DNA of 56,707 bases, taken from a virus. This document shows positions 29,884 through 45,180 of the stretch, piece by piece (the first letter of the stretch is position 1; each line of letters begins with the position of its first letter). A model generated the notes under the pieces. The model worked only from the letters and a program-made list of their open reading frames with translations, did not search any database and had not been told where the DNA came from. The stretch covers positions 1 through 56,707 of the IMG/VR virus record IMGVR_UViG_3300044620_000273; one strand, written 5' to 3'. A program made the translations under genes and the position numbers.

Positions 29884-30025
29884 ATGCTGTTGATAGGCAT
29901 GAAGAGAACCAGAGGCTGATCTCGTGTAGATCGGCCTCGTCCTTCACCGCCATAAACGCTTTTGCCCACGCATCCGCGTCAACGCACATGTCCTGTTCTA
30001 GTTTCCGTCTGACCTCGTGTGTCAA
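29777..30025 (-). CDS. Possible last gene of the leftward operon, overlapping the convergent virion gene
   Basis: An 82-codon frame with TTG start at 30025 that overlaps the upstream TGA (TTGA). It reads TTG-initiated THEVRRKLEQDMCVDADAWA, then KAFMAVKDEADLHEISLWFSS. The D-x-x-AWAKAFM...WF pattern is like small early phage proteins, but the last 35 codons run antisense to the 27793-29883 gene and look non-native (SPHPRNNGTAGSPQPSLAG). Either the gene truly overlaps head-to-head or only the first half is a relic. Confidence 0.4.
   Translation of the reverse strand: MTHEVRRKLEQDMCVDADAWAKAFMAVKDEADLHEISLWFSSCLSTAFICGQQKPHHASLQRSPHPRNNGTAGSPQPSLAGA
29912..29938. terminator. Hairpin between convergent operons
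   Basis: GAGGCTGATCT (29912-29922) and AGATCGGCCTC (29928-29938) form an 11-bp stem with one G-T pair and a 5-base loop. It lies 29 bases after the rightward stop and before the end of the leftward operon. No T-run follows on either strand, so it would be a weak bidirectional terminator or a barrier to antisense read-through. Confidence 0.45.
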
Positions 30026-30399
30026 CGCCCCTCTCCTTTGGCTTCGGCCAGCAGCGCGGCATAGGCTATGTTATCCTCGGCACTATCGGCGTGATACTCG
30101 CTGCGCGTGAACAGGCGAACAAGCTTGACCTGCTGCATGAACATCCAGCCTTCGCTCTCGGTCAGGTCGCGGCCTGTGATGGCATTGAAGGCCGTCACGA
30201 TCTTGCCCATCGACCGTTCGCCCTCTGGCTCGTCGTAGGTCGCAGATCGGTCGTGCATGTGCGCCGCAGCGCGGCCCAGCAGCTCGGCGGCCTTCGGCTC
30301 TGGCATCTTGGGTGTCGCATGCGACTGGAAGCAGTCCATCGTCTTCGTCAGCGTATCATACTCGACGTCGCAGAAACTGCATATAAAGCTCTTGCTCAT
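30022..30399 (-). CDS. DUF6378-type early protein with N-terminal CxxC
   Basis: A 125-residue protein. Residues about 40-122 match DUF6378 as I know it: LLGRAAAHMHDRSATYDEPEGERSMGKIVTAFNAITG, LTESEGWMFMQQVKLVR, and HADSAEDNIAYAALLAE. It adds an N-terminal CSFC with a later Cys/His, which could bind metal. The family is common in phages; its biochemical role is unknown. ATG 30399 overlaps the helicase stop by four bases. Confidence 0.8.
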   Translation of the reverse strand: MSKSFICSFCDVEYDTLTKTMDCFQSHATPKMPEPKAAELLGRAAAHMHDRSATYDEPEGERSMGKIVTAFNAITGRDLTESEGWMFMQQVKLVRLFTRSEYHADSAEDNIAYAALLAEAKGEGR

Positions 30400-31754
30400 T
30401 TCGTTCTCCGTTTCAGTGCTTCCAACAAAACCTCTTGTATCGTCTTCTTGGACGTGAGGCGGTGCATAACGAGACTATCGACCGTGTTGCGGGCGAGGAT
30501 AGGGTAGATGAAGACTGGGCGATCATAACCCGCCTGCTTCTGCCGCATCGGGCCGATGCGCTCAATGATCTGCATATGCTCTTCGAGGTTCCAGTTGACC
30601 CCATAGAAGGCCAATATATTGCCCCCATCGGCAAGGTTCAACCCGTGGCCTGCCGACGCAGGGTGCGCAAACAGGATCGGGATCTGCCCGGCGTTCCACT
30701 GCCTAATCGTGTCAGGGTCTGCGTCCAAGACCCGACCGTTACGAAAGCGATCCCGCAGCCGCGCCAAGTCATGCTTGAAATTATAGGCCACCAACACGGG
30801 CGCGCCGTTGGCTTCCTCGATGATGCTTTCCAGCGCATCCAGCTTGGCCGCGTGAACTGGCTCCCAGTTGCCCTCGTCATCTACGTACATCGCGCCGTTG
30901 GCGAGTTGCAAACACTTCTGCGTGCGCACTGCCGCGTTGACGGCCTCGACACCCTCCTCACCGATCTGCGCGAACATCTCGGTCTCCATGTCCGTGTACA
31001 TGTCCCGCGCGTCGGGCGGCAGGTCGATGTAGATCGGGTTGGTGATTGGCTCGTCGACTGGCAGGCCGCGCACGGTCAGGCAGATGTCCTTGAGCCGCTC
31101 CTCGACCTCGGCCTGCGTGTGATCGTAAGGCACGAGGCTGTAGCCGTCATAGCCCTTGCGGAACCAGCGCATGGCGAAGGCAGAGAAGCTCTGACCCAGA
31201 CGCTCGCCCTTGTCGAGGAACCAGATCTGGCCCCACAGATCCTTGACGCCGTTTGGCGCGGGCGTGCCTGTCAGGCCAATGAAGCGGTCGACGTGCGTGT
31301 GCGCCACCTCACCCAATGCCCGAGCGCGAGATCCGCCCTGCCGCAAGCGGAAGGACTTCAGGCGCGTGAACTCATCCGCGATCACAGTCTTGAAGGGCCA
31401 CGCGTCGCCCACCGCCTTCCGCAGCCAGACAAGGTTGTCATAGTTGGTCGTGTAGATGTCGGCGGGCGTATCAAGCGCCGCTTGACGCTGCTTAGGCGTG
31501 CCGGTGATGACGCTGACGCGCAGGTGCGACAGGTGCGGCCACTTCTGGACCTCGTCAGGCCACGTAGAGCGCGCAACGCGCAGCGGGGCCAGCACAAGGG
31601 CCGGATAGACGTCCTCGACCACGGAGAGGGCCTCCAGAGCCGTCAGGGTGGTTACGGTCTTCCCGCCGCCCATCGGCATCCACAGGGCTGCCCTGCGCTC
31701 CTTGTATAGGTGCGCGAGGGCCTCTTCCTGATAGTCGTGTGGTTTGAAGGTCAC
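30396..31754 (-). CDS. SNF2/DEAD-like superfamily 2 helicase
   Basis: A 452-residue ATP-dependent DNA translocase/helicase. Visible motifs: HDYQEEAL near the N-terminus (Q motif-like), Walker A PMGGGKT with Lys32, LVLAPLRV (Ia), VIADEFTRLKS (motif II, Asp127-Glu128), GLTGTPAPNG (III), APVLVAYNFKHDLARL (IV), and QIIERIGPMRQKQ (VI). Length and spacing fit phage SNF2-type helicases, which are thought to act in replication, recombination or repair. It lies in the leftward replication operon, ATGA-linked to both neighbours. The exact substrate is not deducible. Confidence 0.92.
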   Translation of the reverse strand: MTFKPHDYQEEALAHLYKERRAALWMPMGGGKTVTTLTALEALSVVEDVYPALVLAPLRVARSTWPDEVQKWPHLSHLRVSVITGTPKQRQAALDTPADIYTTNYDNLVWLRKAVGDAWPFKTVIADEFTRLKSFRLRQGGSRARALGEVAHTHVDRFIGLTGTPAPNGVKDLWGQIWFLDKGERLGQSFSAFAMRWFRKGYDGYSLVPYDHTQAEVEERLKDICLTVRGLPVDEPITNPIYIDLPPDARDMYTDMETEMFAQIGEEGVEAVNAAVRTQKCLQLANGAMYVDDEGNWEPVHAAKLDALESIIEEANGAPVLVAYNFKHDLARLRDRFRNGRVLDADPDTIRQWNAGQIPILFAHPASAGHGLNLADGGNILAFYGVNWNLEEHMQIIERIGPMRQKQAGYDRPVFIYPILARNTVDSLVMHRLTSKKTIQEVLLEALKRRTK

Positions 31755-32443
31755 GCTGCTTCCTCGAACTTGGGCCGGGCGATTATGGTCTGCGGCACGC
31801 CGTCGCGCAAGTCATGCGCCTTGATGGTGGCCTTACCGCGAACCTTCTCGCCGCGCTCAAACGCGATGCTGCCCTTGTAGACGATGACGTTGTTGCCAGC
31901 GTCGCGGAAGATCGTGATGTAGACCGTGCCGAACTGGCTGTCGAAGCTGTGCGTGCGCTCGGCGGTCAGGTCGAAGTCGCGACGCTCGCCGACCGTGCCA
32001 ACGTGGTTGGTGTTGGCATCAGCGGCATTAGCTTCGGCGCGGGCAACCTCGCGACCGGCCAGCTTGTCCTTGGCTGCGGCAAAAGACTTAGCGACGGCGG
32101 CGTGCTGACCGTCGGTCAGACCGCCCCACTCATCGATGGCTTTGCGCATGCTGTCGAGGAAAGAACCGCGAGCGTAGAACGACAGGGGGTGGCTGACGAT
32201 CTTGCACCCGCAGACGCCGTACTTGTTGTCTTCATGCTCATACGTGCCGTCGGCATAGCGGCAGCAGCGCGAGCCGAGCTGCTCAACACCAATGAACTCA
32301 CCCTCGTTGAACAGCCAGTCGTGCAGGGTCTGCGCGTCTTCGTGCGCGGCCAGCCACTTGGCGCGGCCTGTCTTGGCGCGGTTCGCTTGGATGCGGCGGC
32401 GGATAGCGGCTTCGTAGCGGGCTTCGTTTTCGATGTACGTCAT
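31751..32443 (-). CDS. Conserved early protein of unknown function
   Basis: A 230-residue protein. I chose ATG 32443 because it follows a predicted promoter, leader and ribosome-binding site; an in-frame extension would run back into the promoter. It contains a Cys cluster (SRCCRYADG, YGVCGCKIV), a charged middle (AAAKDKLAGREVARAEANAADA) and a C-terminal beta segment (FGTVYITIFRDAGNNVIVYKGS). The Cys group could bind metal. Similar proteins occur in other phage replication regions. It overlaps the helicase start by four bases. Confidence 0.7.
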   Translation of the reverse strand: MTYIENEARYEAAIRRRIQANRAKTGRAKWLAAHEDAQTLHDWLFNEGEFIGVEQLGSRCCRYADGTYEHEDNKYGVCGCKIVSHPLSFYARGSFLDSMRKAIDEWGGLTDGQHAAVAKSFAAAKDKLAGREVARAEANAADANTNHVGTVGERRDFDLTAERTHSFDSQFGTVYITIFRDAGNNVIVYKGSIAFERGEKVRGKATIKAHDLRDGVPQTIIARPKFEEAA

Positions 32444-32457
32444 GTCGGTAACTCCGT

Positions 32458-32500
32458 GTTGCTGATGCCCCCTAGTGGCATATGCAACGTCAGGTTGCAA
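32458..32500 (-). promoter_or_regulatory. Early promoter-operator module A
   Basis: On the - strand: TTGCAA (-35, 32500-32495), 17-base spacer, CACTAG (weak -10, 32477-32472), predicted start A32466, and transcript start ATCAGCAAC (32466-32458). The inverted repeat TGCAAC-N5-GTTGCA (32483-32499) overlaps the -35. It is one of four matching modules. Here both repeat arms carry C/G instead of T/A, so symmetry is kept. Confidence 0.6.
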
Positions 32501-32783
32501 CCCCCTTCTGCACTTTTTTCACTATTTCGTCGATTTCTTCTATCGACCGGGCGATGAACACCGGAAAACCGTCGTTTCTCATGCGCTCAATCTCGCGCTG
32601 CTGGTGCCCGCTAACGCGGTCCCCATCGGCTTTGATCTCGATGAAGGCCGCCTTGGGCCACGTCCACCAGACAAAGCAGTCTGGGCAGCCCCTGCGGCCC
32701 TCCCAGCGCACCTTGCGGTACTGACCGCCGCTCTTCTGCACGACGTGCTTGAGATGGTCCTGTAGGCGTCCTGCGGGCGTCAC
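32490..32783 (-). CDS. VRR-NUC domain nuclease
   Basis: A 97-residue single-domain protein of the VRR-NUC (PD-(D/E)XK-like) class. GTG 32783 starts one base after the polymerase stop and has AGGAAGG upstream; ATG 32813 would add ten unlikely residues. Motifs: TPAGRLQDHLKHV, RKVRWEGRRGCPDCFV (the catalytic Asp in GCPD), and AFIEIKADGDRVSGHQ (catalytic Glu-x-Lys). Such phage proteins are structure-specific nucleases placed beside DNA polymerase, likely acting on replication or recombination intermediates. Confidence 0.88.
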   Translation of the reverse strand: MTPAGRLQDHLKHVVQKSGGQYRKVRWEGRRGCPDCFVWWTWPKAAFIEIKADGDRVSGHQQREIERMRNDGFPVFIARSIEEIDEIVKKVQKGVAT

Positions 32784-32784
32784 G

Positions 32785-34749
32785 TCAGTCCTTCCTGTAC
32801 CGCTTGGTCTCAAAGCCCGCAGCGGCCAAAGGCAGGCCGCCAGACCAACTCGGGTTGGTGGACATGAGCTCGGCCAGACCGTCGCTGGTGTAGGTTGGGT
32901 TGTCCGGCGTCTCGCAGACCAACTCGTCGTGGACGCGGATGCAGACGTCGAAGCCGTCGACCTCGGCGCGCAGCATGCCGGACATGAAGACGTCGCGGGC
33001 GATTGCCTGCACTGCGTTCTCCGTCAGCTTGCCGCCATAGGTGTCGAGGCGCTCCCACTTGCGGGTGTACTGGTTCATGCCCTCATGCGTGATTTTGCCG
33101 CTCTCCGACACCTCTGGGCTCGGATAGCACAAGTACCGACCGCTCGGCAGCCGCATGCGCAGCCATGCGATGCCCTGCGTGTCCGCCTTGACGTCGAACG
33201 TGATCAGATCGCGCACGCCAAAGCTTTCGCCCAGATTGTTGATCGCCTCACGCGCGGCGGCCTCCATGTCGTACCACAGGCTGCGCGTGCGCGGGTGCGC
33301 CTTGCGCCATGCCGTGACGATCTCCTGTATGGCCTCGTCGCTCATCGCGTCAAAGACTGCGCCGCCCATCTTCCGATAGGCCCCGACGCCGCCCTGATAG
33401 CCCCCAGCGAGCTCAGGCACCTTGCCCTGAAGCTGCCGCTCGGTCTTTGTGATGTCGCCCGGATCTTTGCCGAGGATGCGTCCAGCGGTCACCTTATACA
33501 AATCGTGCCCGTCGCCGCTGTCATAGGCTTTGAAGGCTTTGATCTTCCAATCCTCGCCCGCCAGCCACGCCAGCACGCGCCCTTCGATGTTCGACAAGTC
33601 GGCGATGACCAGCTTCTTGCCCGGAGACGCGATCAACGCGCCGCGCACGCCGAAGGCGCACCGCTCGCTGATGTTGTCCCAGATGAGATCTTCGCAGTCT
33701 GCCTTAAACGCCGCGACCGTCGTCTCTTGCACGACGTCGTCAAACCAGTCAGGCGAGCGGGGCAGGTTTTGCGGCTGGAACAGACGGCCCGCATCGCGCC
33801 CTGTGCGCGCCGCGCCGCAGAACTGGATCAGGCCGCGCAGGCGACCGTCGCGTGACGTGCCGTTGAGCAGCACAGTGTATTTGGCCGGTGAAGTCGCGGC
33901 GGCCTGCTGGCGGATCTCCAACAACTCGCGCACCTGCGGATCGAGATCCCCGTCGAGCAAGTTGCTGAGGGTGCCACCCGTCAGATCTTCAGGCTCGAAG
34001 TTGAGCTTGTCCTTGAAATGGTCGAGCAGCCGCTGCCGCTGCGTGGCCGAGGTGACGTTGCCGCCAGTCAGATGGGTTGCACGAGCGGCCAGAGCTCTTG
34101 AAGTTCGGTCAAAAGCTCGGAGAGCGGATCGGGCGAAGTCGAGGTCAACGGCGATGCCACGGTCATTAATTCTTTGGTCTGTGAGCCATAGGTTGCGCTC
34201 ATAGCTAGTATCGTTCCAATGCGGCAGGCGTCCATGTACGTCGCGCATCGCGTCCACATCAAGTCGGGCGTATTCGATGAAGGCTGTCCACTCATTGGGG
34301 TGCGTCTCCCGTGTTGCTCGCCGCAATTTCCAGTTCTTGGGACACGGCTTGGTGAATAGATGTATAAGCTTTTTACCTGCTTTGTCTTTAGCTTTGTCAG
34401 TCGGCACGTTCAGGACGTCGCAGAGCTGGCCCAGAGAACCCGGCAGGCTGTGCTGTAGAGCCAGCACCATCGTGTCGATGATCTTCTCTACAGGGATATG
34501 CACGCCCTGTTCGCGCAGCACGGTGCGGTCGAAGTTGCTGTTGTGAATGACGACGCTGTCGGCGCTGTCGATCAGCTCCTGTAACACCTCACGCCAGTTC
34601 GGCATGTCCTGCGTGTCCCAGACGTCCACAGGCGCGTTGTCGGCGGCCAGCGCGACGAGCATCACCTCTGCCTCTTCGGCATAGCGGTACGCCCCGTGCC
34701 GGATGTTGACGGCGCAGAAGGTTTCCAAATCGAGGTATAGGATGGTCAT
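32785..34749 (-). CDS. DNA polymerase family A with 3'-5' exonuclease
   Basis: A 654-residue replicative polymerase. The N-terminal exonuclease domain has LYLDLET (Asp7, Glu9), VIHNSNFDRTVL and YARLDVDAM. Polymerase motif A is VIADLSNIEGRVLAWLAG (Asp384), motif B runs through TERQLQGKVPELAGGYQGG (Arg438, Lys443, Tyr451), and motif C is RVHDELV (His607-Asp608-Glu609). No 5'-nuclease domain is present, as in most phage family A enzymes. It is ATGA-linked to the upstream HTH gene and followed by the nuclease, forming a replication block. Confidence 0.97.
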   Translation of the reverse strand: MTILYLDLETFCAVNIRHGAYRYAEEAEVMLVALAADNAPVDVWDTQDMPNWREVLQELIDSADSVVIHNSNFDRTVLREQGVHIPVEKIIDTMVLALQHSLPGSLGQLCDVLNVPTDKAKDKAGKKLIHLFTKPCPKNWKLRRATRETHPNEWTAFIEYARLDVDAMRDVHGRLPHWNDTSYERNLWLTDQRINDRGIAVDLDFARSALRAFDRTSRALAARATHLTGGNVTSATQRQRLLDHFKDKLNFEPEDLTGGTLSNLLDGDLDPQVRELLEIRQQAAATSPAKYTVLLNGTSRDGRLRGLIQFCGAARTGRDAGRLFQPQNLPRSPDWFDDVVQETTVAAFKADCEDLIWDNISERCAFGVRGALIASPGKKLVIADLSNIEGRVLAWLAGEDWKIKAFKAYDSGDGHDLYKVTAGRILGKDPGDITKTERQLQGKVPELAGGYQGGVGAYRKMGGAVFDAMSDEAIQEIVTAWRKAHPRTRSLWYDMEAAAREAINNLGESFGVRDLITFDVKADTQGIAWLRMRLPSGRYLCYPSPEVSESGKITHEGMNQYTRKWERLDTYGGKLTENAVQAIARDVFMSGMLRAEVDGFDVCIRVHDELVCETPDNPTYTSDGLAELMSTNPSWSGGLPLAAAGFETKRYRKD

Positions 34750-35039
34750 CGTTTGCCGTGCAGGATCTCGCTGATGCGACCGATGTTAATGTTGTGCGCC
34801 TCGGCAATATCTTGGTGTGTCATATCGGGGTTGTTGCCCGCCATGTGGCGCACCGACGCGCGGACGTCTGCCGTGATGCGTTTGCTCTTCACCGGCGCGC
34901 GGCTGTAGGTCCGACGGTATGTCTCCTGCATCAACGCGTTGATGCGCAAGTTTATCTCATACTGCCGACGGGACAGCTTTACGCCCTCATCGGTCAGCTC
35001 AGAAATCAAATCGCGGATTTGTGGTATGGTAAGTTTCAT
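34746..35039 (-). CDS. HTH DNA-binding protein under a structured leader
   Basis: A 97-residue protein. The N-terminal half is helical (LTIPQIRDLISELTDEGVKLSRRQYEINLRINALM). The C-terminal half looks like a helix-turn-helix: ITADVRASVRHMAGNNPDMTHQDIAEAHNINIGRISEILHGK, with the xRISEILxGK ending common in small phage regulators. The ribosome-binding site AAGGAG (35053-35048) is eight bases from ATG 35039 and lies at the foot of a strong upstream hairpin (35052-35130). It overlaps the polymerase start by ATGA, so its translation may control polymerase output. Confidence 0.8.
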   Translation of the reverse strand: MKLTIPQIRDLISELTDEGVKLSRRQYEINLRINALMQETYRRTYSRAPVKSKRITADVRASVRHMAGNNPDMTHQDIAEAHNINIGRISEILHGKR

Positions 35040-35172
35040 GCTGATAACTCCTTCTTTCAGGTGAGCCGCGCGCTTCGGTTATCAGCAACGCAGGAGCAAC
35101 CCGCACCCGCGCGCGGCTCGCCAGAAAGAAGGTACGCCCGCCGACGATACATGAGGAGAGCGGGCGTACCAT
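35040..35172 (-). ncRNA. Structured leader with two hairpins and potential pseudoknot
   Basis: Read on the - strand. Hairpin I: GGTACGCCCGC (35170-35160) pairs perfectly with GCGGGCGTACC (35141-35131), 18-base loop. Hairpin II: 35130-35109 pairs with 35073-35052 over 22 positions with two mismatches, plus AACC/GGTT (35101-35098 with 35080-35077) in its head. This leaves a 17-base apical loop (35097-35081). Loop bases 35087-35078 are complementary to 35048-35039, the end of the ribosome-binding site, spacer and first base of the HTH gene's ATG. The region has no convincing ORF. Expression and folding are inferred. Confidence 0.7.
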
Positions 35173-35178
35173 GACTAT

Positions 35179-35195
35179 AGACCTAAAGTAGGTCT
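35179..35195 (-). terminator. Short hairpin at the end of the GapR-like gene
   Basis: AGACCTA (35179-35185) and TAGGTCT (35189-35195) form a perfect 7-bp stem with a 3-base loop that spans the gene's stop codon. It directly precedes the structured leader, so it is a third helix in the same 143-base interval. There is no T-run, so termination is uncertain. Confidence 0.4.
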
Positions 35196-35437
35196 AAGCC
35201 AATAGCCGAGGCATAGGTATCGAGTATCGCGAAATGTTCGTCCCTATCTTCCTTCGACATCTTGCGGATGCGCACGATCTCACGGAGGATTTTCGGCACA
35301 TATCCACGGGCCTTAGCCTCAGTGTACACGTCCCTGATGTCTTCCGCGATGCCCTTCTTCTCCTCTTCGAGACGCTCGATGCGCTCGATTAAAAGACGGA
35401 GCGGATCGCCCGCACTATTGTGTCCTACCTCGCTCAC
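35183..35437 (-). CDS. GapR-family (DUF2312) DNA-binding protein
   Basis: An 84-residue protein. GHNSAGDPLRLLIERIERLEEEKKGIAEDIRDVYTEAKARGY and LREIVRIRKMSKEDRDEHFAILDTY match DUF2312/GapR throughout. Cellular GapR in Caulobacter-type bacteria binds AT-rich overtwisted DNA ahead of replication forks and stimulates topoisomerases. A phage copy in a replication operon may handle supercoils during phage replication or divert the host system. The family is largely alphaproteobacterial, which supports the host assignment. ATGA overlap with the SSB-like gene. Confidence 0.92.
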   Translation of the reverse strand: MSEVGHNSAGDPLRLLIERIERLEEEKKGIAEDIRDVYTEAKARGYVPKILREIVRIRKMSKEDRDEHFAILDTYASAIGLDLL

Positions 35438-36018
35438 AGGATGTCGTCCGCGTCGGCCTTAGCCTTCGCCAGACCAGCGAACTCGTCCGCCGATGCTGGA
35501 GCGGAACCGCCACCGAAGTTCTCACCTTCGCCGGTCAGCATGACGCCGCGCAGCGAGCAGTTGATGCGACGGCCCCACTTGTTGTCCTGCGCCCAGATCT
35601 CGACCGAAGCGTTGACCAGCGCGCCGCTGAACGCCTTGGCTTCAATCTCGCTCTTGCCGCTCAGCTCTTCACCGTACTGATTGAACACGGTGGGCTGGGT
35701 CTTGGCGTTGCGGGCAGACAGATAGTGCATGCCGTCAAAGCCCTGATAGGCTTCGCCTGTCTTCTTCGAGCGGTAAACCTTCTTGGTGAAGGCAACCTTG
35801 CCATCTTCTTCAAGCATCGACAAAACGCTGTCGGCCTTGTCCTTCCAAGCTTCCTTAGCTTCGGCCAGCATAGCAGCCTCGATGGCCTTCTGCTGTTCGC
35901 TATTTGGCTTGATTGGGAACTTGGCACCATAGGCAGGTTCGCCTTCGCCAAATGCCTGCGGTTCGGCCAGAGCCGGAAACGCCAGTGTGATGCCTTTGAG
36001 CATAATACGTGTAGCCAT
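35434..36018 (-). CDS. Single-stranded DNA-binding-like protein (DUF2815)
   Basis: A 194-residue protein. ATG 36018 is preferred over the TTG at 36024. RIMLKGITLAFPALAEPQAFGEGEPAYGAKFPI, AFTKKVYRSKKTGEAYQGFDGMHYLSARN and NASVEIWAQDNKWGRRINCSLRGVMLTGEGENFGGG match DUF2815, an OB-fold family related in role to T7 gp2.5. The acidic C-terminus (ADADDIL) is typical of SSB proteins that recruit partners. It sits between the DUF2800 nuclease and GapR genes, a common phage recombination/replication arrangement. Confidence 0.9.
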   Translation of the reverse strand: MATRIMLKGITLAFPALAEPQAFGEGEPAYGAKFPIKPNSEQQKAIEAAMLAEAKEAWKDKADSVLSMLEEDGKVAFTKKVYRSKKTGEAYQGFDGMHYLSARNAKTQPTVFNQYGEELSGKSEIEAKAFSGALVNASVEIWAQDNKWGRRINCSLRGVMLTGEGENFGGGSAPASADEFAGLAKAKADADDIL

Positions 36019-36036
36019 TATCAATTATCCACTTCT

Positions 36037-37275
36037 TCAGTTTGCAGTTTTAATAAGATCGCTGAAATCATCAGCGACCGATTGAACGGTCAATTCTGAC
36101 CGCTTATCCGAGGCAAATGCCACAGATGGCTTACCGTCGCTGCGGGAGGTCAGGGCTTCGACCTTCTCCCACCGCTTGGGGTTACTCTTGAACATCTTCT
36201 CCGCCTTTGTCGGGGAAATCAAGCTCATATCATATATTTCGTCCTGCCGCAGGCGGAAAGACTTGAACAGGGCCTCGACCTCAGCCTCATCCTTCCATTT
36301 GCGGTTGCCCTTGCGGCCTTCGACCAGCTTGAAGCCGTCGATCTTTTGTCCCGCCAACAGCCGACGCTCGACCTCGGCGCGGACGGCTTTGCACCAATCC
36401 TCGACCAGACCGACCTTCGCCATGGCGATGGACAGATAGTTGTCGCCTGTCTGCATGTCTGGCACCTCCGGCAGGAAGGCCTCGAACTCATCCAGCGTGG
36501 CCGCAGCCGATCCGCCGACGACCTCGGTCATCTCCGCACGCAGGGCTGGGCACGTCGCCTTGGCCTTGCAGAAGCGGCACTGCTTCTCACCGGGGGTGAA
36601 GAAACCCTTGACCAGATCGTCGGTGGGATCTGACATGTCGAGGCTCTGGCCCAGTTGAACGTGCCCTGCGGCTTCGCGCACCTGATCGGCAAACTTGAGC
36701 AAATCCTCTGTCGTCATGTGGCACTCGCCGACATAGTTGAGGCGGGGCATGTGGATGTACATGCTGACCGTGTCGAAGTCGCATAGGACGCCGTACATCT
36801 CCAATGCGCCCAGCGCATACATCATGAGCTGCGGATTGTTTGTCGCGTCCACGGCAACGCCCACGCCGTACTTCAGGTCGACAATGGACAGGTTGCGGCC
36901 CGCCACGTCCACGATGACCACGTCGCTGGTGCCTGTGGCTCCCTCTTCGCCTGTCAGGTGGCCGATTGGCACCTTGCTCTCGACATACAGGGTCTTGCCC
37001 TGCGACAGCTCGCGGACGAGCTTCATGTAGTCGAGAACGTGATCGATCATATCCTGCCCGACGGTAAAGTCGAAGCCGTCGACGGTGTGCTTGGTGCCGA
37101 GGTACACGGGCGTGTACGTGTCGTTGAGCAAACTCTCCGACGCAATCTCGTGCGCCAGCGTACCCTCAGCGGCGTAGATGCTGCTGTCGTCTGGATAGGC
37201 CGCCTCAAGGACGACGCTGCCCGGACAGGCCATCCAGCGGTGCGCGCCGGACGGACTAAGCTTTGCGTGTGCCAT
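36037..37275 (-). CDS. DUF2800 PD-(D/E)XK nuclease (RecB/Cas4-like)
   Basis: A 412-residue protein. The N-terminus LSPSGAHRWMACPGSVVLE and AEGTLAHEIASESLL, the catalytic core SDVVIVDVAGRNLSIVDLKYGVGVAVDA (Asp...Asp-x-Lys) with NNPQLMMYALGAL, and the Cys cluster CRFCKAKATCPAL fit DUF2800, whose fold resembles RecB/Cas4 exonucleases with an iron-sulphur or zinc site. Paired with the DUF2815 protein it likely works in phage recombination or end processing. ATG 37275 shares its last base with the upstream stop. Confidence 0.9.
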   Translation of the reverse strand: MAHAKLSPSGAHRWMACPGSVVLEAAYPDDSSIYAAEGTLAHEIASESLLNDTYTPVYLGTKHTVDGFDFTVGQDMIDHVLDYMKLVRELSQGKTLYVESKVPIGHLTGEEGATGTSDVVIVDVAGRNLSIVDLKYGVGVAVDATNNPQLMMYALGALEMYGVLCDFDTVSMYIHMPRLNYVGECHMTTEDLLKFADQVREAAGHVQLGQSLDMSDPTDDLVKGFFTPGEKQCRFCKAKATCPALRAEMTEVVGGSAAATLDEFEAFLPEVPDMQTGDNYLSIAMAKVGLVEDWCKAVRAEVERRLLAGQKIDGFKLVEGRKGNRKWKDEAEVEALFKSFRLRQDEIYDMSLISPTKAEKMFKSNPKRWEKVEALTSRSDGKPSVAFASDKRSELTVQSVADDFSDLIKTAN

Positions 37276-37721
37276 TAGGCGATCTCTGCTTCGAGGCGAG
37301 CGATCAGCTCAGGCCACAAACCGTCGTCCAGATCCGAGGCGCGGACGCCGCCGAACTCAGACAGGACGTCCTGCACAAATGGCTTACCCTTTGCGGCCAC
37401 CGCACGCAGCACCACCGGCGCAACGTCCAACTCAAAGTTGAGCGGCTCGGAGGCCGATGCCGCAGGAGCAGGGGTAGAAGAGGGTTCCGTCGTCGTTGGC
37501 TGGCTCTCGGAGCCAGCCGCAGCCTCGGCACTCTTGGGGGCCGGAGTAGGGTCCACGGGTGCGGCTTCGGCTACCCCCATAACTTCTTCGATTGTCTGAG
37601 CACCTGTGCCCCCGTTGGCGATGGGTAGAACAGCCGTGGTGGCCCGCAAGCTGGCACCGATAGCCAACAACTTGTCAGCCACTTCGGGGATGCTGTTGCC
37701 TGTTACTTCGATCTTAATCAT
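37275..37721 (-). CDS. Early protein with Pro/Ala linker
   Basis: A 148-residue protein. It has an N-terminal MIKIEVTGNSIPEVADKLLAIGASL, a long Ala/Pro/Ser/Thr linker (about 55-95) and a C-terminal helical domain (LDVAPVVLRAVAAKGKPFVQDVLSEFGGVRASDLDD, WPELIARLEAEI). The two ends are conserved in proteins next to DUF2800 genes in other phages, as far as I recall. No enzyme motif. It may tether replication/recombination proteins. Confidence 0.65.
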   Translation of the reverse strand: MIKIEVTGNSIPEVADKLLAIGASLRATTAVLPIANGGTGAQTIEEVMGVAEAAPVDPTPAPKSAEAAAGSESQPTTTEPSSTPAPAASASEPLNFELDVAPVVLRAVAAKGKPFVQDVLSEFGGVRASDLDDGLWPELIARLEAEIA

Positions 37722-37724
37722 CTA

Positions 37725-38009
37725 TCAGTTTCCTTTTTTCAGTTCTTCAATAGTTTCGTCACGCTGGCTAATCATCAGTTCGAGTTTGTTGATTTCCATT
37801 TCCAGTTCATAGACCTTGTCTTCGAGGTGGCTCACCTCGCGGTTTGCGTCGGCGGTGCGCTCGTTCGCTTCATACAAATCCGTTTCGGCTTCGAGCATTA
37901 TGTCATCCAAACGCTCGGCCAGCACAACGGCCAGCTCCGAGTTCGGGTTGTACTTCGCCTCCTCGAGCAGTTGCTGATCCTCTTCGGTGCGGTAATATGT
38001 GCGGTCCAT
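37725..38009 (-). CDS. Coiled-coil early protein
   Basis: A 94-residue protein. ATG 38009 has GAGGGG upstream. It begins MDRTYYRTEEDQQLLEEAKY and is then almost entirely coiled coil (ETDLYEANERTADANREVSH, KVYELEMEINKLELMISQRDE). Strongly acidic. Function unknown; the next gene starts three bases downstream. Confidence 0.65.
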   Translation of the reverse strand: MDRTYYRTEEDQQLLEEAKYNPNSELAVVLAERLDDIMLEAETDLYEANERTADANREVSHLEDKVYELEMEINKLELMISQRDETIEELKKGN

Positions 38010-38020
38010 TTCAATCCCCC

Positions 38021-38197
38021 TCAAAAGTTCCACGGCTGCGCGCCGTACTGTTTGGCGAGCTGACGCGCTTCACGCTTGCCGCTCACGTTGAAGCCGATCA
38101 GGTGCGTGCGGTGCCCGCCCACGATCCGCGTAAGGTACACTGTCGCGGGGACGTTGCGCCCCCGTGACGTGAACTCTGCTGCAAGGATGCCCAGCAT
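38021..38197 (-). CDS. Small basic early protein
   Basis: A 58-residue protein. ATG 38197 is four bases after the preceding TAA. The sequence (LAAEFTSRGRNVPATVYLTR, GGHRTHLIGFNVSGKREARQLAKQYGAQPW) is basic with alternating strands, and ends PWNF. It could be a nucleic-acid-binding protein; not recognised. Confidence 0.6.
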   Translation of the reverse strand: MLGILAAEFTSRGRNVPATVYLTRIVGGHRTHLIGFNVSGKREARQLAKQYGAQPWNF

Positions 38198-38201
38198 GCG
38201 C

Positions 38202-38513
38202 TTAGGCCTTGCGCGCCACGACCTTGACGGTCGTGTAGCCCTTGGTGGTCTTCTGGTTCTTGCTGAACCAGCGACCGTCGACGCCCAGCTCACGAAGCTT
38301 GGCTTCGGCTGCCTTGGGGCAGAGCGACTGGCGCTCGGCGATCTCGGACACGGTGGCGCGGAAGGTGTCGCCCTCGTGGGCACCTGCGCCAAGATCCTTG
38401 ATTTCGTCGGTCAGAAAAGCTTCGATTTCCTTCAAGCGGGCGATCTCGGCCTTGATGTCGCCCAGACGGTCGACTGGGGAAATGTTGGAAATGGTTGCGG
38501 CTACAGTTGCCAT
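38202..38513 (-). CDS. Early phage protein, first gene after promoter B
   Basis: A 103-residue protein. The N-terminal helix (SPVDRLGDIKAEIARLKEIEAFLTDEIKDLGAGAHEGDTF) is followed by a compact basic C-terminal part with PKAAEAKLRELGVDGRWFSKNQK and TTVKVVARKA. Homologues are common in phage early regions with unknown function. It is the first gene served by the best of the repeated promoter modules, with AGGAG before ATG 38513. Confidence 0.7.
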   Translation of the reverse strand: MATVAATISNISPVDRLGDIKAEIARLKEIEAFLTDEIKDLGAGAHEGDTFRATVSEIAERQSLCPKAAEAKLRELGVDGRWFSKNQKTTKGYTTVKVVARKA

Positions 38514-38529
38514 GATGCGTACTCCTATT

Positions 38530-38576
38530 TGCGTTGCTGATAAACATCATATAGTCGCTGCAATTAGGCATTGCAA
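38530..38576 (-). promoter_or_regulatory. Early promoter-operator module B (best copy)
   Basis: On the - strand: TTGCAA (38576-38571), a 17-base spacer, TATATG (38553-38548), predicted start A38541, and transcript start ATCAGCAACGCA (38541-38530). The inverted repeat TGCAAT-N5-ATTGCA (38559-38575) overlaps the -35. TTATCAGCAACGCA (38543-38530) is complementary over 14 bases to the apical loop region of the structured leader at 35.08 kb. Confidence 0.7.
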
Positions 38577-38591
38577 CCCCCCTAAGCAAAA

Positions 38592-40643
38592 TTATTCGTA
38601 AAAAATTACAATGCCTTTTTCCATGCGCAGAGGGCCGTCCTTTTCCTTGCTAAGTTGCTGAATTGCCCTGACAATCGATTGACGGCGGATGTCACGCTTG
38701 CCCGGCTCAGGCGGTGGTAACATATCGCAAGCCTTCTGGATGAGCTCTTCTGAACGCACGACGGCGTCTTCTGCAAAGGTCGTCATGACCTCAAGCACAT
38801 GCGTCTCAAGCCGACCGCGACGCTTCACGGATTTCTTGTCCTCGGTCACGGTCGACCGCACCTCGTCCTCGACTGCGACGCAGCTTGTGATCTCGTCACC
38901 GTCCTCGTCGAAGCCCAGCAGGATCGTCTCCAACTTGAAGCCCCAGCGCAGGCCGTCCTCGCCGTCCTTCTGCTTGCTGGTGCGGATCTGGCGTGCGCCG
39001 CTGTTCTCATCGCGCGTCACTTCCAGCTCAGCGTCGACGGCGGCACGGATGCCTGACCAGCCGCGTGAGCCTCGGTGGGCGTCCTTGCCTGCGTGATGCA
39101 CAAGCTCGACCGTCGCGCCTGTCGCGGTGCGCAGGACGCGCACGTTGGCAAGGGCGAGGCCCATGTCCTCTGCGCCGTTCTCATTCGCGCCGGGCGTCAC
39201 CTGCGCAAAGGTGTCGATCACGATCAGGGACACGCCGCCGACCGCCTTGATCGATGCCGCCAACTCGGTGACGTCGCCCTCCTCCATGAGGTTGGGCGGC
39301 ACCACGATCACGCCGATGTCCAGATCCTTGGGCGAGATGCCCAGATGCTGCGCCAGCGCCTTGATGCGCTTGCCGTAGCTGCCTGCGCCTTCCGCCGCGA
39401 TGATCACGACGCGGCCCTTCTCGGCCTTGTGGCCGCGCCACGGCACGCCCAGTGCGATGCAGGCCGCCATCTCAAGCACGACAAAGCTCTTGCCTGAGCC
39501 CGACGCGCCAAAGATCGTGACGATGTCGGCGGCAGGCACGACGCCCTTGATGAGCCACTTAGCCGTCTTCTGGCTGCTCATCTCATCGGCAGACAGGACT
39601 GGGAACTTGCCGGTGTAGCCCGCAGGCGAATAGACGCCCTCTGACGCTTCCAGATCGGCGACGAGCGCATCGGCCTTGGCCGACACCTCATAGGCGCTCG
39701 CCGCCTTACTGGGGCGCGTTGCTGCGGCGTCCTTTACCATCTTGATTACGGAGGCCATGGTGACCTGCTTGCGGTTGGAGCCCTTGCGCCGCTCGAAGCT
39801 GTCCCACTGGACGCGCAGCCCTTCGGTGCCGGGGTAGGTGTAGCCTTCGCTCGACCAGTCGTCCCAGATCTCGAAGCCGTCATCGCCGCCGTCGGTCTCA
39901 TGGGCCAGAGCCATGCCGACCTTAATCCACTGCTCGCGGCCCATGTCTGGATCGAGGGCGGAGACTAGCTCCTCCATGCGCTCAATGGTCAGGCCCAGCC
40001 TCGGCTCGCGGCCTGCCATGAAGTCGTCGGGATCGATGACGTTATTCTGCACCGAACCGAAGCGGGTCTCGCATAGGTCGACCGTGTACTGGTCAACGTC
40101 GGCGACGGTGTTTTTGAGGCCGATCATCTCGCAGGCTGGCAGGATGTTGCCGGTGAAGGTCACAAAGCCTGAGCTGCTGAACGTCTCGAAGCCGAAGCGG
40201 TCGGGCGTGGCGTGGCTCTTGTGGTTGCCCAGATTGCCCCTCAGCGCGGCGCGGATGCCTTTGCCGCTGGGGCTGTACTCGGCGTAGGTGCGCACGATGA
40301 TGCGCTCGATGTCGCTGGGGATCTCACCGTTCGGCCCGACGCAGTGGTCGAAGTCGAGGAAGGTGTAGCCAAAGTCAGGCAGGGGCGCGAAGCCGACGCC
40401 GTCATAGCCCATGCGCGCGGCTGCGTCGCGAGCGGCGGCGAAGGTCGTCAGCCGTGTGCGGTCGGTCGGGGAGCCCTGCTGGCCGTGCCTGATCGTGCCG
40501 TCGGTCCAGTAGGGCACCTTACGCGGCTTGGGTTCGTTGTGGTACTTTTCAAAGCGCCAGATGAGCCACGCGGGAACTGAACGCAGTTCCTCTGGCACTT
40601 CTAACGAGAGAAGTTTGGGCGCAATTGCCCTTACGCTTGCCAT
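38592..40643 (-). CDS. Primase-polymerase fused to RecA-like helicase
   Basis: A 683-residue protein. ATG 40643 has GAGAGGA upstream. Residues about 15-170 are a prim-pol domain (VPAWLIWRFEKY, KVPYW, FLDFDHC with Asp97/Asp99, YSPSGKGIR). Residues about 215-295 are PriCT-like (LVSALDPDMGREQWIKVGMALAHE, WDDWSSEGYTY, WDSFERR). Residues about 350-560 are a RepA/RecA-type ATPase: Walker A GASGSGKS, VIIAAEGAG, LIVIDTFAQ (Walker B) and VELVHHAGKD. The C-terminus looks winged-helix. It likely primes and unwinds phage DNA with the family A polymerase, replacing separate primase and helicase genes. Confidence 0.93.
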   Translation of the reverse strand: MASVRAIAPKLLSLEVPEELRSVPAWLIWRFEKYHNEPKPRKVPYWTDGTIRHGQQGSPTDRTRLTTFAAARDAAARMGYDGVGFAPLPDFGYTFLDFDHCVGPNGEIPSDIERIIVRTYAEYSPSGKGIRAALRGNLGNHKSHATPDRFGFETFSSSGFVTFTGNILPACEMIGLKNTVADVDQYTVDLCETRFGSVQNNVIDPDDFMAGREPRLGLTIERMEELVSALDPDMGREQWIKVGMALAHETDGGDDGFEIWDDWSSEGYTYPGTEGLRVQWDSFERRKGSNRKQVTMASVIKMVKDAAATRPSKAASAYEVSAKADALVADLEASEGVYSPAGYTGKFPVLSADEMSSQKTAKWLIKGVVPAADIVTIFGASGSGKSFVVLEMAACIALGVPWRGHKAEKGRVVIIAAEGAGSYGKRIKALAQHLGISPKDLDIGVIVVPPNLMEEGDVTELAASIKAVGGVSLIVIDTFAQVTPGANENGAEDMGLALANVRVLRTATGATVELVHHAGKDAHRGSRGWSGIRAAVDAELEVTRDENSGARQIRTSKQKDGEDGLRWGFKLETILLGFDEDGDEITSCVAVEDEVRSTVTEDKKSVKRRGRLETHVLEVMTTFAEDAVVRSEELIQKACDMLPPPEPGKRDIRRQSIVRAIQQLSKEKDGPLRMEKGIVIFYE

Positions 40644-40666
40644 GTCGTCATCCTCTCCCACAGTGT

Positions 40667-40915
40667 TTACAGTAGATCTGCGCTTGCGCTCGGCGTGTTC
40701 AGGGCCCGCATGAGATCAGGGTTCATGAGGTCGGAGCGCGGGATGGCGAAGATGGCCTCGATGATGATGGCCTTCTCGACGGGTGCCCAGCCGCGACTTT
40801 TCCACGCATAGACGGCCTGATGCGTCAGGCCCATGCGCTTACAGAACTTGACGATGCCGCCGCCTCGCTCGATGGCGAGGTCGATGGCGGCAATGCGTTC
40901 TTGTTTGGTGGTCAT
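40667..40915 (-). CDS. YdaS/Cro-like transcription regulator
   Basis: An 82-residue protein. IDLAIERGGGIVKFCKRMGLTHQAVYAWKSRGWAPVEKAIIIEAI is a Cro/YdaS-type helix-turn-helix, with the recognition helix around THQAVYAWKSRG. It is a leading candidate to bind the four TGCAAY-N5-RTTGCA operators. It lies in the transcript served by promoter C, so negative feedback would be possible. Overlaps the previous gene by ATGA. Confidence 0.88.
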   Translation of the reverse strand: MTTKQERIAAIDLAIERGGGIVKFCKRMGLTHQAVYAWKSRGWAPVEKAIIIEAIFAIPRSDLMNPDLMRALNTPSASADLL

Positions 40916-41100
40916 GCGGCTACTTTCGTTTCTTGCCTGAAGCTCTCTTCTCGGAGGCCCCAGACGCGGGTGATGACCATGTGCTCGGTCCTAAGTTGGG
41001 TAATTTGGTTGTTGATGGCGCGCAACTCGGCTTCGAGCTTGTCGCGCTTGATGAAGGCCTTGCGAGCCTCGGCGTGGATGGTCTTGAGATCCCGTGTCAT
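40912..41100 (-). CDS. Small coiled-coil early protein
   Basis: A 62-residue protein, highly charged helix (LKTIHAEARKAFIKRDKLEAELRAINNQITQLRTEH). ATGA overlaps on both sides. No family recognised; possibly a dimeric adaptor. Confidence 0.65.
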   Translation of the reverse strand: MTRDLKTIHAEARKAFIKRDKLEAELRAINNQITQLRTEHMVITRVWGLREESFRQETKVAA

Positions 41101-41327
41101 TTGAAACGCTCCCCCTTGCGGCCCAAACGGCCTGTCTTCGGATTGCGGAAGTGTGCCTGCTTGAGCAGATCTTGGAGACGCTCAAGCTCGGTGCGCAGGA
41201 TACGCTGATGCAGTGCATGCTCTTTCAGCTTCAGCTCAAGCCTACTGTTCATGGCGTACAGACGGTCGGCTTCCAACTTGTAGGCTTCAATCGCCTTGCG
41301 TGCGGCCCACGGCCAGATGATGTTCAT
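41097..41327 (-). CDS. Small basic helical early protein
   Basis: A 76-residue protein. It begins MNIIWPWAARKAIEAYKLEADRLYAMNSRLEL, continues as coiled coil and ends in a basic tail (NPKTGRLGRKGERFK). ATGA-linked both sides. Its MNIIWPWAARK start resembles the MIWNPWRRVREL start of the small protein between the terminase genes (46763), a distant likeness only. Confidence 0.65.
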   Translation of the reverse strand: MNIIWPWAARKAIEAYKLEADRLYAMNSRLELKLKEHALHQRILRTELERLQDLLKQAHFRNPKTGRLGRKGERFK

Positions 41328-41638
41328 GCGTACTCTCCCAGTTTTCCGGCGGCGATTGCCTCCTCGATGATGTCGGTAAGTTTGGCTGCCAGCTTCTCGT
41401 AGCTGACGGCCCAGTCCATGGATGCGTAGCGGTGGGCGTCCGTGCGCTCATTGATGTCGAACGAGGTGCCGTGATCCCAGACGACGATGTCTGTCGTCTC
41501 TCCTTCGAGGTAAACGTCGAAGTCGGCAGTCGCGCCTTGCTCAGGCTCGTAGCCGTCCCAACTGACGGTGATGTCGAGCTGGGTGTGCGCCTTGAGAGCC
41601 TTGTTGATCTGGCTTTCGGTGTATTCGGGGTGGTCCAT
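41324..41638 (-). CDS. Acidic early protein, first gene after promoter C
   Basis: A 104-residue protein. ATG 41638 lies 23 bases downstream of the predicted transcript start, with CGGAGT as ribosome-binding site. It is acidic with central strands (LDITVSWDGYEPEQGATADFDVYLEGETTDIVVWDHG) and a helical C-terminus. No known family. It leads a unit that includes the Cro-like regulator and prim-pol. Confidence 0.65.
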   Translation of the reverse strand: MDHPEYTESQINKALKAHTQLDITVSWDGYEPEQGATADFDVYLEGETTDIVVWDHGTSFDINERTDAHRYASMDWAVSYEKLAAKLTDIIEEAIAAGKLGEYA

Positions 41639-41652
41639 GTTGTGTACTCCGT

Positions 41653-41696
41653 GTTGCTGATGAGCCATCCCTAATCGATGCAATCAGACATTGCAA
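41653..41696 (-). promoter_or_regulatory. Early promoter-operator module C
   Basis: On the - strand: TTGCAA (41696-41691), a 17-base spacer, TAGGGA (41673-41668), predicted start A41661, transcript start ATCAGCAACACGG. The inverted repeat TGCAAT-N5-ATTGCA is at 41679-41695. The -10 is poor, suggesting a need for activation or a phage factor. Confidence 0.6.
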
Positions 41697-41700
41697 TACC

Positions 41701-41811
41701 CTATCGATGATTTTTTTGGTACTCGTCGATTGCTCGACGCAGCCAATCCCCTGCCCAGACCGCGCCCAGCACCAGTAGGATGACACCGATAAAGAGAGCG
41801 GCCTCCGTCAC
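41701..41811 (-). CDS. 36-residue membrane micro-protein
   Basis: GTG 41811 overlaps the upstream TGA; TAG is at 41703-41701. The product begins V/M-TEAALFIGVILLVLGAV and continues WAGDWLRRAIDEYQKNHR: one membrane segment (about 5-19) plus an amphipathic basic/acidic tail. It ends five bases before promoter C. Coupling and composition support a real gene; function unknown. Confidence 0.55.
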   Translation of the reverse strand: MTEAALFIGVILLVLGAVWAGDWLRRAIDEYQKNHR

Positions 41812-42062
41812 GCGTTGCCCGCCACGTCACTGAACATGGTCAGGTCCGTATGTGCCCGCGACATAATCATCCGAGCCATGGCTTGGGTGACCTCGGACAC
41901 GTCCTGAACGTCGTCCATCGCCATGAACTCGGCGTACAGGAGCTTGATCAGGACTTCCGCCCGGCAAACCCGCTCACTGTCGGCGAAGATGTCCCAGAGG
42001 ACGTCGGTAATCTCTTGCTCCGCTGTTTCGTGCGATAGGACGTGGCGCTCTTCTTCAGTCAT
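41808..42062 (-). CDS. Acidic early protein
   Basis: An 84-residue helical protein (TEEERHVLSHETAEQEITDVLWDIFADSERVCRAEVLIKLLYAEFM). Acidic and Met-rich, without membrane segment. The start overlaps the preceding small gene by eight bases and its stop overlaps the GTG of the micro-protein. Unknown function. Confidence 0.65.
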   Translation of the reverse strand: MTEEERHVLSHETAEQEITDVLWDIFADSERVCRAEVLIKLLYAEFMAMDDVQDVSEVTQAMARMIMSRAHTDLTMFSDVAGNA

Positions 42063-42204
42063 CTTTTTTCCCTTCGATTAGGTGGTTCAGCCCGAGGCGC
42101 ACGGCCTCGCGCTCAAGGTGTTGGACCTTGCGCCGAGCCAGCTCCAGTTGCTGCGGCAAGATCTTGATGCGGTACTTCATGTACCGCAGGGCTTCTGGCG
42201 TCAA
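42055..42204 (-). CDS. 49-residue helical micro-protein
   Basis: TTG 42204 overlaps the upstream TGA (TTGA) and has GAGGAG nine bases before it; an in-frame ATG at 42180 is the alternative. The product continues TPEALRYMKYRIKILPQQLE, LARRKVQHLEREAVRLGLNH and ends EGKKDD. It is a basic amphipathic helix. Function unknown. Confidence 0.5.
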   Translation of the reverse strand: MTPEALRYMKYRIKILPQQLELARRKVQHLEREAVRLGLNHLIEGKKDD

Positions 42205-42278
42205 AATCTAATCTCCTCGTCGGCCCAGTCGTAAATGTCCCAGCCGAAATTATCGAACAGGAATTGGCGCAGGGTCAT
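42201..42278 (-). CDS. 25-residue micro-protein
   Basis: ATG 42278 overlaps the upstream stop (ATGA), and its TGA overlaps the next TTG. The product is MTLRQFLFDNFGWDIYDWAD followed by EEIRF: acidic and aromatic. Perfect four-base joins on both sides suggest translation, at least as a coupling peptide. Confidence 0.45.
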   Translation of the reverse strand: MTLRQFLFDNFGWDIYDWADEEIRF

Positions 42279-42562
42279 TTGCGGTATTCCTGTAGGACTG
42301 CGTTCACCGCCGCTAGCACAAACTCTTCGTCTTCTGGCGTTACGTCAGATGGGTCAACGTATAGGTAGACAAGGCTACGCAGTCGCTCGTTCTCTGCTTT
42401 CAGCGCATCGGTCTGTTGTTCCGCTACCGCTTTGATGGCAGATGCGTAGACTAATCCGATTTCCCCGACGGATAGCCCCTGCTCGGTCTGGGGTTGGCGG
42501 AGGGCTTTGCCGCATGATGGACATTCGTCTTGTCGTATCTTTTTAAGATATACTTCGGTCAT
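42275..42562 (-). CDS. Early protein with CxxC and coiled coil
   Basis: A 95-residue protein. CPSCGK near residue 14 could be half of a metal site. The rest is a charged helix (AIKAVAEQQTDALKAENERLRSLVYLYVDPSDVTPEDEEFVLAAV). ATGA overlaps on both sides. Function unknown. Confidence 0.65.
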   Translation of the reverse strand: MTEVYLKKIRQDECPSCGKALRQPQTEQGLSVGEIGLVYASAIKAVAEQQTDALKAENERLRSLVYLYVDPSDVTPEDEEFVLAAVNAVLQEYRK

Positions 42563-42696
42563 TTGCGTTTCTCCCGTATGTAAAACCAGTCAGCCCACGA
42601 AATGCGGCCAGACCTGCTCCCCGAAAAGTAGAAGCAGCTTCGGCCCTTGCGTTTGTCAGCCATTTCAATGCGCTTAGTTTGGATTGGGTTGGTCAT
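42559..42696 (-). CDS. 45-residue basic protein
   Basis: ATG 42696 overlaps the upstream stop by four bases, which selects this start over the longer frame. The product (TNPIQTKRIEMADKRKGRSC, then FYFSGSRSGRISWADWFYIR) is basic and aromatic. Unknown function. Confidence 0.55.
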   Translation of the reverse strand: MTNPIQTKRIEMADKRKGRSCFYFSGSRSGRISWADWFYIREKRK

Positions 42697-42887
42697 TGCC
42701 CCTTTTCCCATGTCAGCGCGTCGGCTTTGCCTGTGAACACTAACCACGCCGCCTTAACCCTCGAGCAGAACGACGGGTAGCCGTATGCCCTAGCCGGGAC
42801 CCATGCCATGCCGGGTGGCACGCGGGTCATGTTCTGGTTGGCGGTTTCGATAATCTCGCGCACCGATATTATGTTCGGGTATTTCAT
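42693..42887 (-). CDS. 64-residue early protein
   Basis: ATG 42887 overlaps the preceding stop (ATGA). The product begins MKYPNIISVREIIETANQNM and continues TRVPPGMAWVPARAYGYPSF; the N-terminal VREIIETANQN...PPGMAWVPARP-like pattern is common in small phage proteins. A short hydrophobic segment (VKAAWLVFTG) follows. Function unknown. Confidence 0.65.
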   Translation of the reverse strand: MKYPNIISVREIIETANQNMTRVPPGMAWVPARAYGYPSFCSRVKAAWLVFTGKADALTWEKGQ

Positions 42888-43255: not shown

Positions 43256-43419
43256 CTGAGTAACAGCCCTTCCAGTTCGCGGATGGCCCACTGGATGCCT
43301 TGGATCTCGACGCCCATGTCGTGCAGGCCGTGTGCGTCCTTGGCGTGTAGAAACACCTCCGCCATCTCCCAGCATACTTGTTCGCGCTTGCGCAGCGCCT
43401 CGATACGTTCCTTGATCAT
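43252..43419 (-). CDS. 55-residue helical micro-protein
   Basis: ATG 43419; TGA overlaps the next start (ATGA). The product is MIKERIEALRKREQVCWEMA, EVFLHAKDAHGLHDMGVEIQ, GIQWAIRELEGLLLR: a helical protein with a GLHDMGVEIQGIxWA segment of the sort seen in small conserved phage proteins. Good codon use and tight coupling support it. Confidence 0.6.
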   Translation of the reverse strand: MIKERIEALRKREQVCWEMAEVFLHAKDAHGLHDMGVEIQGIQWAIRELEGLLLR

Positions 43420-45155: not shown

Positions 45156-45160
45156 GATGT

Positions 45161-45176: not shown

Positions 45177-45180
45177 GGGT

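Follow-up and report, generated by a model that had tools for sequence, protein, structure and literature searches.

The stretch analysed here, 56,707 nucleotides of the IMG/VR virus record IMGVR_UViG_3300044620_000273 (the window), carries on its minus strand, from 35202 to 35037, a promoter-like sequence, two tandem hairpins and the ribosome-binding site and start codon (AAGGAG-TTATCAGC-ATG) of a 97-aa gene, in this order. The promoter-like sequence (TTGGCT-17-TATAGT, 35174-35202) is sigma-70-like, was found once compared with 0.3 expected occurrences in shuffles, and has its predicted start at the foot of hairpin 1; its -35 overlaps the 3' end of gene 35183-35437. Hairpin 1 (35131-35170) is a predicted GC-rich 5' stem-loop whose sequence is highly variable among relatives. 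Hairpin 2 (35052-35130) has an antisense apical loop on a stem of about 22 pairs, in which a C.A (or U.U) mismatch is conserved. In the predicted fold, the two hairpins span about 119 nt with an energy of -69.9 kcal/mol (z -5.35), and none of 200 shuffles was equally stable. Two blocks can be distinguished in the loop, both on the minus strand: an anti-leader core (RNA GUUGCUGAUAA, 35079-35089), of whose 11 nt the MFE fold leaves 10 unpaired, and an anti-Shine-Dalgarno block (RNA GCUCCUGC, 35090-35097) whose CCUGC is paired inside the loop in this fold. GUUGCUGAUA of the loop stays unpaired in the prediction. Read on the plus strand, TTATCAGCAACGCAGGAGC (35079-35097) occurs nowhere else in the window, even with up to three mismatches allowed. 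A second antisense loop could not be found in hairpin 1: at eight loci, up to six scattered 9-mer matches were shown per locus and none was judged leader-like.

An earlier note on this DNA had claimed that the loop (35077-35101, minus strand) is antisense to the leaders of five early genes, and each of the positions it gave proved correct. All five leaders lie on the minus strand. The first (ATCAGCAACGCA, 12 nt, 45520-45531) precedes gene 45203-45502 (99 aa) and follows TTGCAA-17-TAGGGA at 45566-45538. The second (TATCAGCAAC, 45161-45176) is joined to AGGAGC in front of gene 44955-45155 (66 aa); it has no TTGCAA promoter and is preceded by a short GC hairpin, GGGGGCTCCGGCCCCC. Leaders 3 (41653-41661) and 5 (32458-32466) both read ATCAGCAAC and belong to genes 41324-41638 (104 aa, TTGCAA at 41696-41691) and 31751-32443 (230 aa, TTGCAA at 32500-32495), respectively. 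Leader 4 (TTATCAGCAACGCA, 14 nt, 38530-38543; TTGCAA at 38576-38571) precedes gene 38202-38513 (103 aa), which comes after the helicase-primase gene. In every case the match starts 21-30 nt 5' of the ATG, with the Shine-Dalgarno sequence in between. None of the five target proteins matched Pfam at E 0.01, and the only PHROGs matches among them were those of 31751-32500, to five families of unknown function.

Chance matching was rejected as an explanation based on shuffle counts and duplex energies. TATCAGCAA was seen three times in the window compared with 0.2 expected, a count reached in none of 100 shuffles, and when the central 21 nt of the loop were scored against 163 candidate starts, the five targets ranked 1, 2, 3, 4 and 6. 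ATCAGCAAC itself occurs eight times in the window: in the five leaders, in the loop and at two other sites (19094, plus strand; 37978, minus strand) inside the listed ORFs 18788-20596 and 37725-38033. When duplex energies were computed for the entire GC-rich 39-nt loop, the targets did not stand out: of the five, only one was among the 14 starts listed out of 492 candidates.

Four of the five window leaders come after a palindromic TTGCAA...TTGCA promoter of the form TTGCAA-17-(-10). These promoters (45566, 41696, 38576 and 32500, minus strand) contain an operator-like palindrome, TTGCAA-N6-TTGCA, which differs among relatives, for example TTGCAAGTGATTGCTTGCA in L127. An 82-aa protein encoded at 40667-40915 (minus strand) weakly matches phrog_35, a phage transcriptional repressor family, and is a candidate for binding the TTGCAA operator. 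Upstream of the first early promoter, dense repeats of the ATGCTGCA/TGCAGCAT type surround a GC-rich hairpin (45560-45830, minus strand), possibly an origin or a regulator array. No integrase family was found among the part of the window proteins that was scanned.

The 97-aa gene directly 3' of the hairpins (34746-35039, minus strand) belongs to phrog_23243 and has a short match to a repressor family. Its ribosome-binding site, GTTATCAGC(A) at 35039-35048, offers 10 nt of complementarity to the loop; the full GTTATCAGC-ATG (35048-35037) had been overlooked in the earlier note. Hairpin 2 contains the gene's Shine-Dalgarno sequence in its 3' arm, and its loop complements the gene's GTTATCAGCA. 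By duplex energy this site ranked 83 of 163. In relatives, the downstream gene's own ribosome-binding site tracks the loop, with GTATCAGC accompanying loop GCTGATAC, and likewise in case of GGGACAACC. The gene following the hairpin differs among relatives, being the HTH gene, the DNA polymerase gene itself or another; irrespective of its identity, most hairpins listed hold its Shine-Dalgarno sequence at the base of the 3' arm. Given this variety of following genes, a reading as a purely cis-acting element of the HTH gene was rejected, and we regard the hairpin as an element in its own right.

Relatives were collected via the 97-aa protein (21 loci), the exact 19-mer (19 stretches) and a DNA polymerase search, of which the best 80 of 108 relatives were used. 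Nine of the 80 start inside the polymerase gene and were excluded; among the 71 loci with upstream DNA, 64 carry the hairpin upstream of the polymerase gene, 71 to 1389 nt from the polymerase match. The seven loci without a hairpin are L074 (polymerase 71% identical), which has neither hairpin nor motif in 9.3 kb, and six with polymerases at 47-49%. L230 (89%) has a leader and no hairpin in the 417 nt of upstream sequence available. Other polymerase loci starting inside the gene (e.g. L128-L136, L222, L224, L345) and repeated contigs were left out, and L163 and L148 were dropped as unrelated hairpins. Some loci share one contig, and IMG/VR contigs are non-independent samples. Nothing came of comparing 30000-46000 (megablast) and the hairpin (blastn) with the phage collection, and among the best 80 of 541 polymerase relatives in genome contigs, nine had any hairpin and none a convincing leader set.

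Compensatory changes keep the stem of hairpin 2 intact. In 20 hairpins chosen for diversity, 97.5% of cells were paired and 16 of 22 pairs showed double changes; none of 500 shuffles matched this, and sliding the register by 1-3 columns reduced pairing to 39-58%. The mismatch at alignment A2 columns 35/108 is constant (C.A in 16 of 20 hairpins, U.U in 4 of 20) and may be a feature for a protein or for RNase III. The strand could not be decided from G.U counts (16 G.U compared with 2 A.C in the stem, one further column being a constant C.A or U.U mismatch). A loose scan, for which no chance rate is available, found promoter-like sequences before the element in 49 of 55 distinct upstream regions from the window and relatives; the -35 reads TTGGCN in 41 of the 49, and the spacing is 17 in 46. 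This conservation may partly be coding, since the -35 extends in part into the end of the upstream gene. At L312:6799, hairpin 2 is kept without the promoter-like sequence and the 5' arm of hairpin 1, and upstream gene sequence seems to join hairpin 2 directly.

The earlier note had named covariation of loop and leaders in related phages as a test, and the cores were found to switch together in most cases. Where loops are antisense to ATCAACAAC, CTCAGCAAC, ATCAAGCAA, ACCAACAAC, GTCAGCAAC or GGGACAACC, the same sequence is found in the leaders of those phages. The loop core of L083 differs by one base, and the matching ATCAACAAC is present in four leaders; L084/L086/L095 are of the CTCAGCAAC type, L097/L098/L101 of the ACCAACAAC type and the L023/L127 group of the ATCAAGCAA type. 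With identical loop and leader sets merged (as also in the energy swap and the orthologue test below), 44 contigs with a ATCAGCAAC loop had 85 own-type leader sites compared with 12 of the four other types scored. Own-type sites made up 4 of 4 for ATCAACAAC (1 contig), 2 of 2 for CTCAGCAAC (2 contigs), 4 of 4 for ATCAAGCAA (6 contigs) and 7 of 7 for ACCAACAAC (5 contigs), and the 14 contigs with these four loop types contained no ATCAGCAAC site. Two later scans used a fresh, not blinded set of 30 loci with upstream DNA. The finder gave 18 hairpins, of which L344 was unrelated, and missed that of L320, which was recognised by inspection. Own-core leaders were found in nine loci (L312, L313, L315, L319, L323, L326, L337, L339, L340), the remaining hairpin loci had no matching leader in the DNA examined, and 11 further loci, with polymerases at 29-54% identity, had no hairpin. 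L319 carries GTCAGCAAC in its loop and three leaders, and L339/L340 carry GGGACAACC in loop, leaders and the downstream gene's own ribosome-binding site, with three leaders in L339. L337 retains the ATCAGCAAC match though its promoters look different, and L320 has ATCAGCAA leaders, with GAGAGCAAC common to its loop and one leader.

An orthologue test used every homologue's leader regardless of motif, in five families chosen as targets in some phage. The own phage's core was found in 50 of 58 unique pairs, another core in 4 and none in 4. For non-ATCAGCAAC loops the own core was present in 14 of 16 pairs and ATCAGCAAC in none, and one target family of 52-54 aa displayed five core types over nine pairs (8 own, 1 none). 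Loops were also swapped among leaders located via the helicase stop codon (33 pairs with 21 loops): the mean duplex energy was -32.5 for own loops compared with -27.1 for permuted ones, and none of 20000 permutations, which do not remove shared descent, reached the own value. Only 5 of 33 leaders scored best with their own loop, and for L077, L092 and L125 the own loop fell short of the average over the other loops. On the polymerase tree, with states assigned by hand, seven loop-type and six leader-type changes were counted (4 and 5, respectively, on an initial tree that used five types). The four independent pairs all agree, a number that alone cannot reach significance. Here, the mixed L108 and L184/L195 as well as L320 (ATCAGCAA) were scored ATCAGCAAC, and L329 was excluded. 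The Shine-Dalgarno-side block covaries more weakly, with a mean shared run of 5.68 for own compared with 4.99 for permuted pairs (163 of 20000 as high).

Several phages depart from this pattern. L108 is mismatched, its loop being of the ATCAGCAAC type with two own-type leaders and three of ATCAACAAC; L184/L195 have mixed leaders, and L329 is degenerate, with one ACCAACAAC and a poor fit. Within the ATCAAGCAA group, L121 and L122/L125 carry no more than CCAAGCAA at the gene that follows the helicase. The sole promoter-anchored leader of L335 does not match its own loop, and L102 and L107/L137/L138 have the hairpin and no clear leader set. L045 and L046 had no exact leader in the contig count, L045 being positive in a looser count. 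Mismatches compatible with G.U numbered 15 compared with 8 A-C and 35 transversions, some of them from false leaders, and are only suggestive as evidence of wobble pairing. Chance matches to the GC-rich flanks of the loops made a matrix of 9-mer matches noisy; only in 4 of 12 rows (W, L083, L337, L184) did the own-loop count surpass all 300 shuffles, and L138 and L329 were at chance level.

Altogether, 149 leader sites, selected by each phage's own core and including a few doubtful starts, precede 110 distinct, mostly small proteins in 38 sequence clusters. Among 101 exact promoter-anchored leaders from the window and relatives, for which L107, L137 and L138 were excluded, the core starts 34-36 nt after the -35 in 84, a position at which transcripts are expected to begin; in the remaining 17 its distance from the scored TTG is 47-49 nt. 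As the leader precedes 110 distinct proteins and follows other promoters (L337) or none that could be seen, it goes with the mRNA, not with the promoter.

No known Rfam family could be assigned: 34900-35300 gave three matches to two eukaryotic microRNA models, all below gathering scores, and these were rejected. C4 (RF01695) was not found at its gathering score in the window and six relatives, nor up to E 10 in 34900-35300, which bears out the earlier note's remark that the element has no clear identity to C4. C4 antisense RNA is processed at its 5' end by RNase P and targets the icd/ant antirepressor operon. It is described as an RNA of about 77 nt with three stem-loops, released from a larger transcript, whose loops pair with an upstream block a' that gives specificity and with the ribosome-binding site b' (PMC5320573); it is encoded upstream of a target within one operon (PMC8198154). 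The likeness to C4 of P1/P7 lies in loop complementarity to an upstream block and the target ribosome-binding site. In the present element both blocks share one loop, the predicted fold has two tandem hairpins with one long conserved stem instead of three stem-loops, and the targets number at least five, none of them assigned to an antirepressor family by the searches made. The element thus appears to work like C4 RNA but fails its Rfam model and architecture. The CI RNA of satellite phage P4 is a processed phage RNA pairing with complementary phage leader sequences (PMC4825925). It acts by premature transcription termination, whereas the hairpin described here suits a translation block, since the core lies about 20-30 nt from the start codon, the match includes the Shine-Dalgarno sequence and the short leaders make termination unlikely. 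Lambda OOP and P22 sar are cis-encoded phage antisense RNAs transcribed opposite their target. They likewise exert antisense control by a phage RNA, but the targets here are kilobases away and have only a short leader in common. Trans-acting base-pairing sRNAs are discrete transcripts, often chaperone-bound; short, co-evolving complementarity to several unlinked mRNAs, a further feature of theirs, was found here with the exceptions given above. The nearest named relatives found are Caulobacter phages RW, KcrB, RLK and GB2A (polymerase 59%, terminase 58%, helicase 50% identity). RW has terminator-like and Shine-Dalgarno-sequestering hairpins at the syntenic place (L116 11930-12000), but its hairpin folds to a 3-nt loop and its leaders have no common antisense motif by eye; the complement of one hairpin arm, ACAGAC-GAGG, partially matches one RW leader (ACAGACAGAGGAG). 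No comparable element was described in titles and abstract starts among the matches listed in the open literature, which leaves most subscription papers outside.

Taken together, we consider it probable (roughly 70%) that the locus encodes an antisense RNA which acts in trans, in the manner of C4, by covering early mRNAs at their 5' end and Shine-Dalgarno sequence. The earlier note's proposal of such an RNA acting on an early regulon gains support from loop-leader co-switching, stem covariation, the promoter-like sequence and the kept genomic place. Sequence comparison establishes that the structure exists, that it is conserved and that loop and leaders co-evolve, and it supports loop-leader pairing well; because both change together across related phages, the RNA very probably pairs with early messages and controls their translation. 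We infer that a short structured RNA comprising both hairpins is transcribed from the minus strand, by its own promoter-like sequence and/or early-operon read-through, and released by processing, with RNase III as one candidate. Hairpin 2 would then present, in its apical loop, an unpaired seed antisense to about nine 5'-terminal bases common to early mRNAs, and the neighbouring block would pair with their Shine-Dalgarno sequences. Pairing in trans with the leaders, and also with the ribosome-binding site of the gene directly downstream, would block ribosome binding, so that early genes may be shut down together as the RNA accumulates, which could make it a timer or an immunity factor.

The main rival, which we consider unlikely, reverses the direction: abundant early leaders would bind the loop, open the hairpin and free the Shine-Dalgarno sequence of the downstream gene; the hairpin would thereby sense early transcription in cis. 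Since base pairing works in both directions, covariation alone is compatible with this reading, as is the placement of the Shine-Dalgarno sequence at the base of the 3' arm in most hairpins listed, be the gene HTH, DNA polymerase or other. However, the loop also contains an anti-Shine-Dalgarno block, the downstream gene's own ribosome-binding site often bears the same target sequence, and pairing at the loop need not open a 22-pair stem. Quite improbable is that a protein recognises the motif in promoter DNA or leader RNA, with the hairpin as an extra binding site or decoy. The palindromic promoter before four of the five window leaders and the position of the leader sequence at the predicted start site would suit such a protein, but the motif also occurs without the TTGCAA promoter (45175; L337, L010, L083:13438), and a wholesale joint change of loop and leaders from ATCAGCAAC to GGGACAACC poses little difficulty for base pairing but much for a protein. 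A protein binding leader RNA would further require transcription of the hairpin's opposite strand. As the leader goes with the mRNA, sits at the ribosome-binding site and can be rewritten wholesale, RNA pairing is favoured over a protein. A non-functional origin, in which a duplicated leader was copied in inverse orientation into the loop and recombination maintained the similarity, could draw on the several promoter-leader units per genome but is very improbable given that loop and leaders match in two blocks of differing spacing, that the stem is structurally constrained and that matching survives several type switches.

Phage antisense RNAs known to us mostly control one operon, whereas the single structured element described here seems to span a regulon of small early genes. 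RNA-level control of phage early genes thereby becomes testable, with the natural loop types and their matching leaders as ready-made compensatory variants and as antisense/leader pairs of different specificity, and the system displays how a multi-target RNA co-evolves with its targets. A tentative reading, to which we give somewhat less than even odds, is that one loop serves as a re-writable key silencing the whole early regulon, the leaders of many unrelated genes being rewritten together whenever the loop changes. Divergent keys would then leave related phages mutually insensitive, as in immunity specificity, and the loop type may represent an RNA-level immunity or timing allele.
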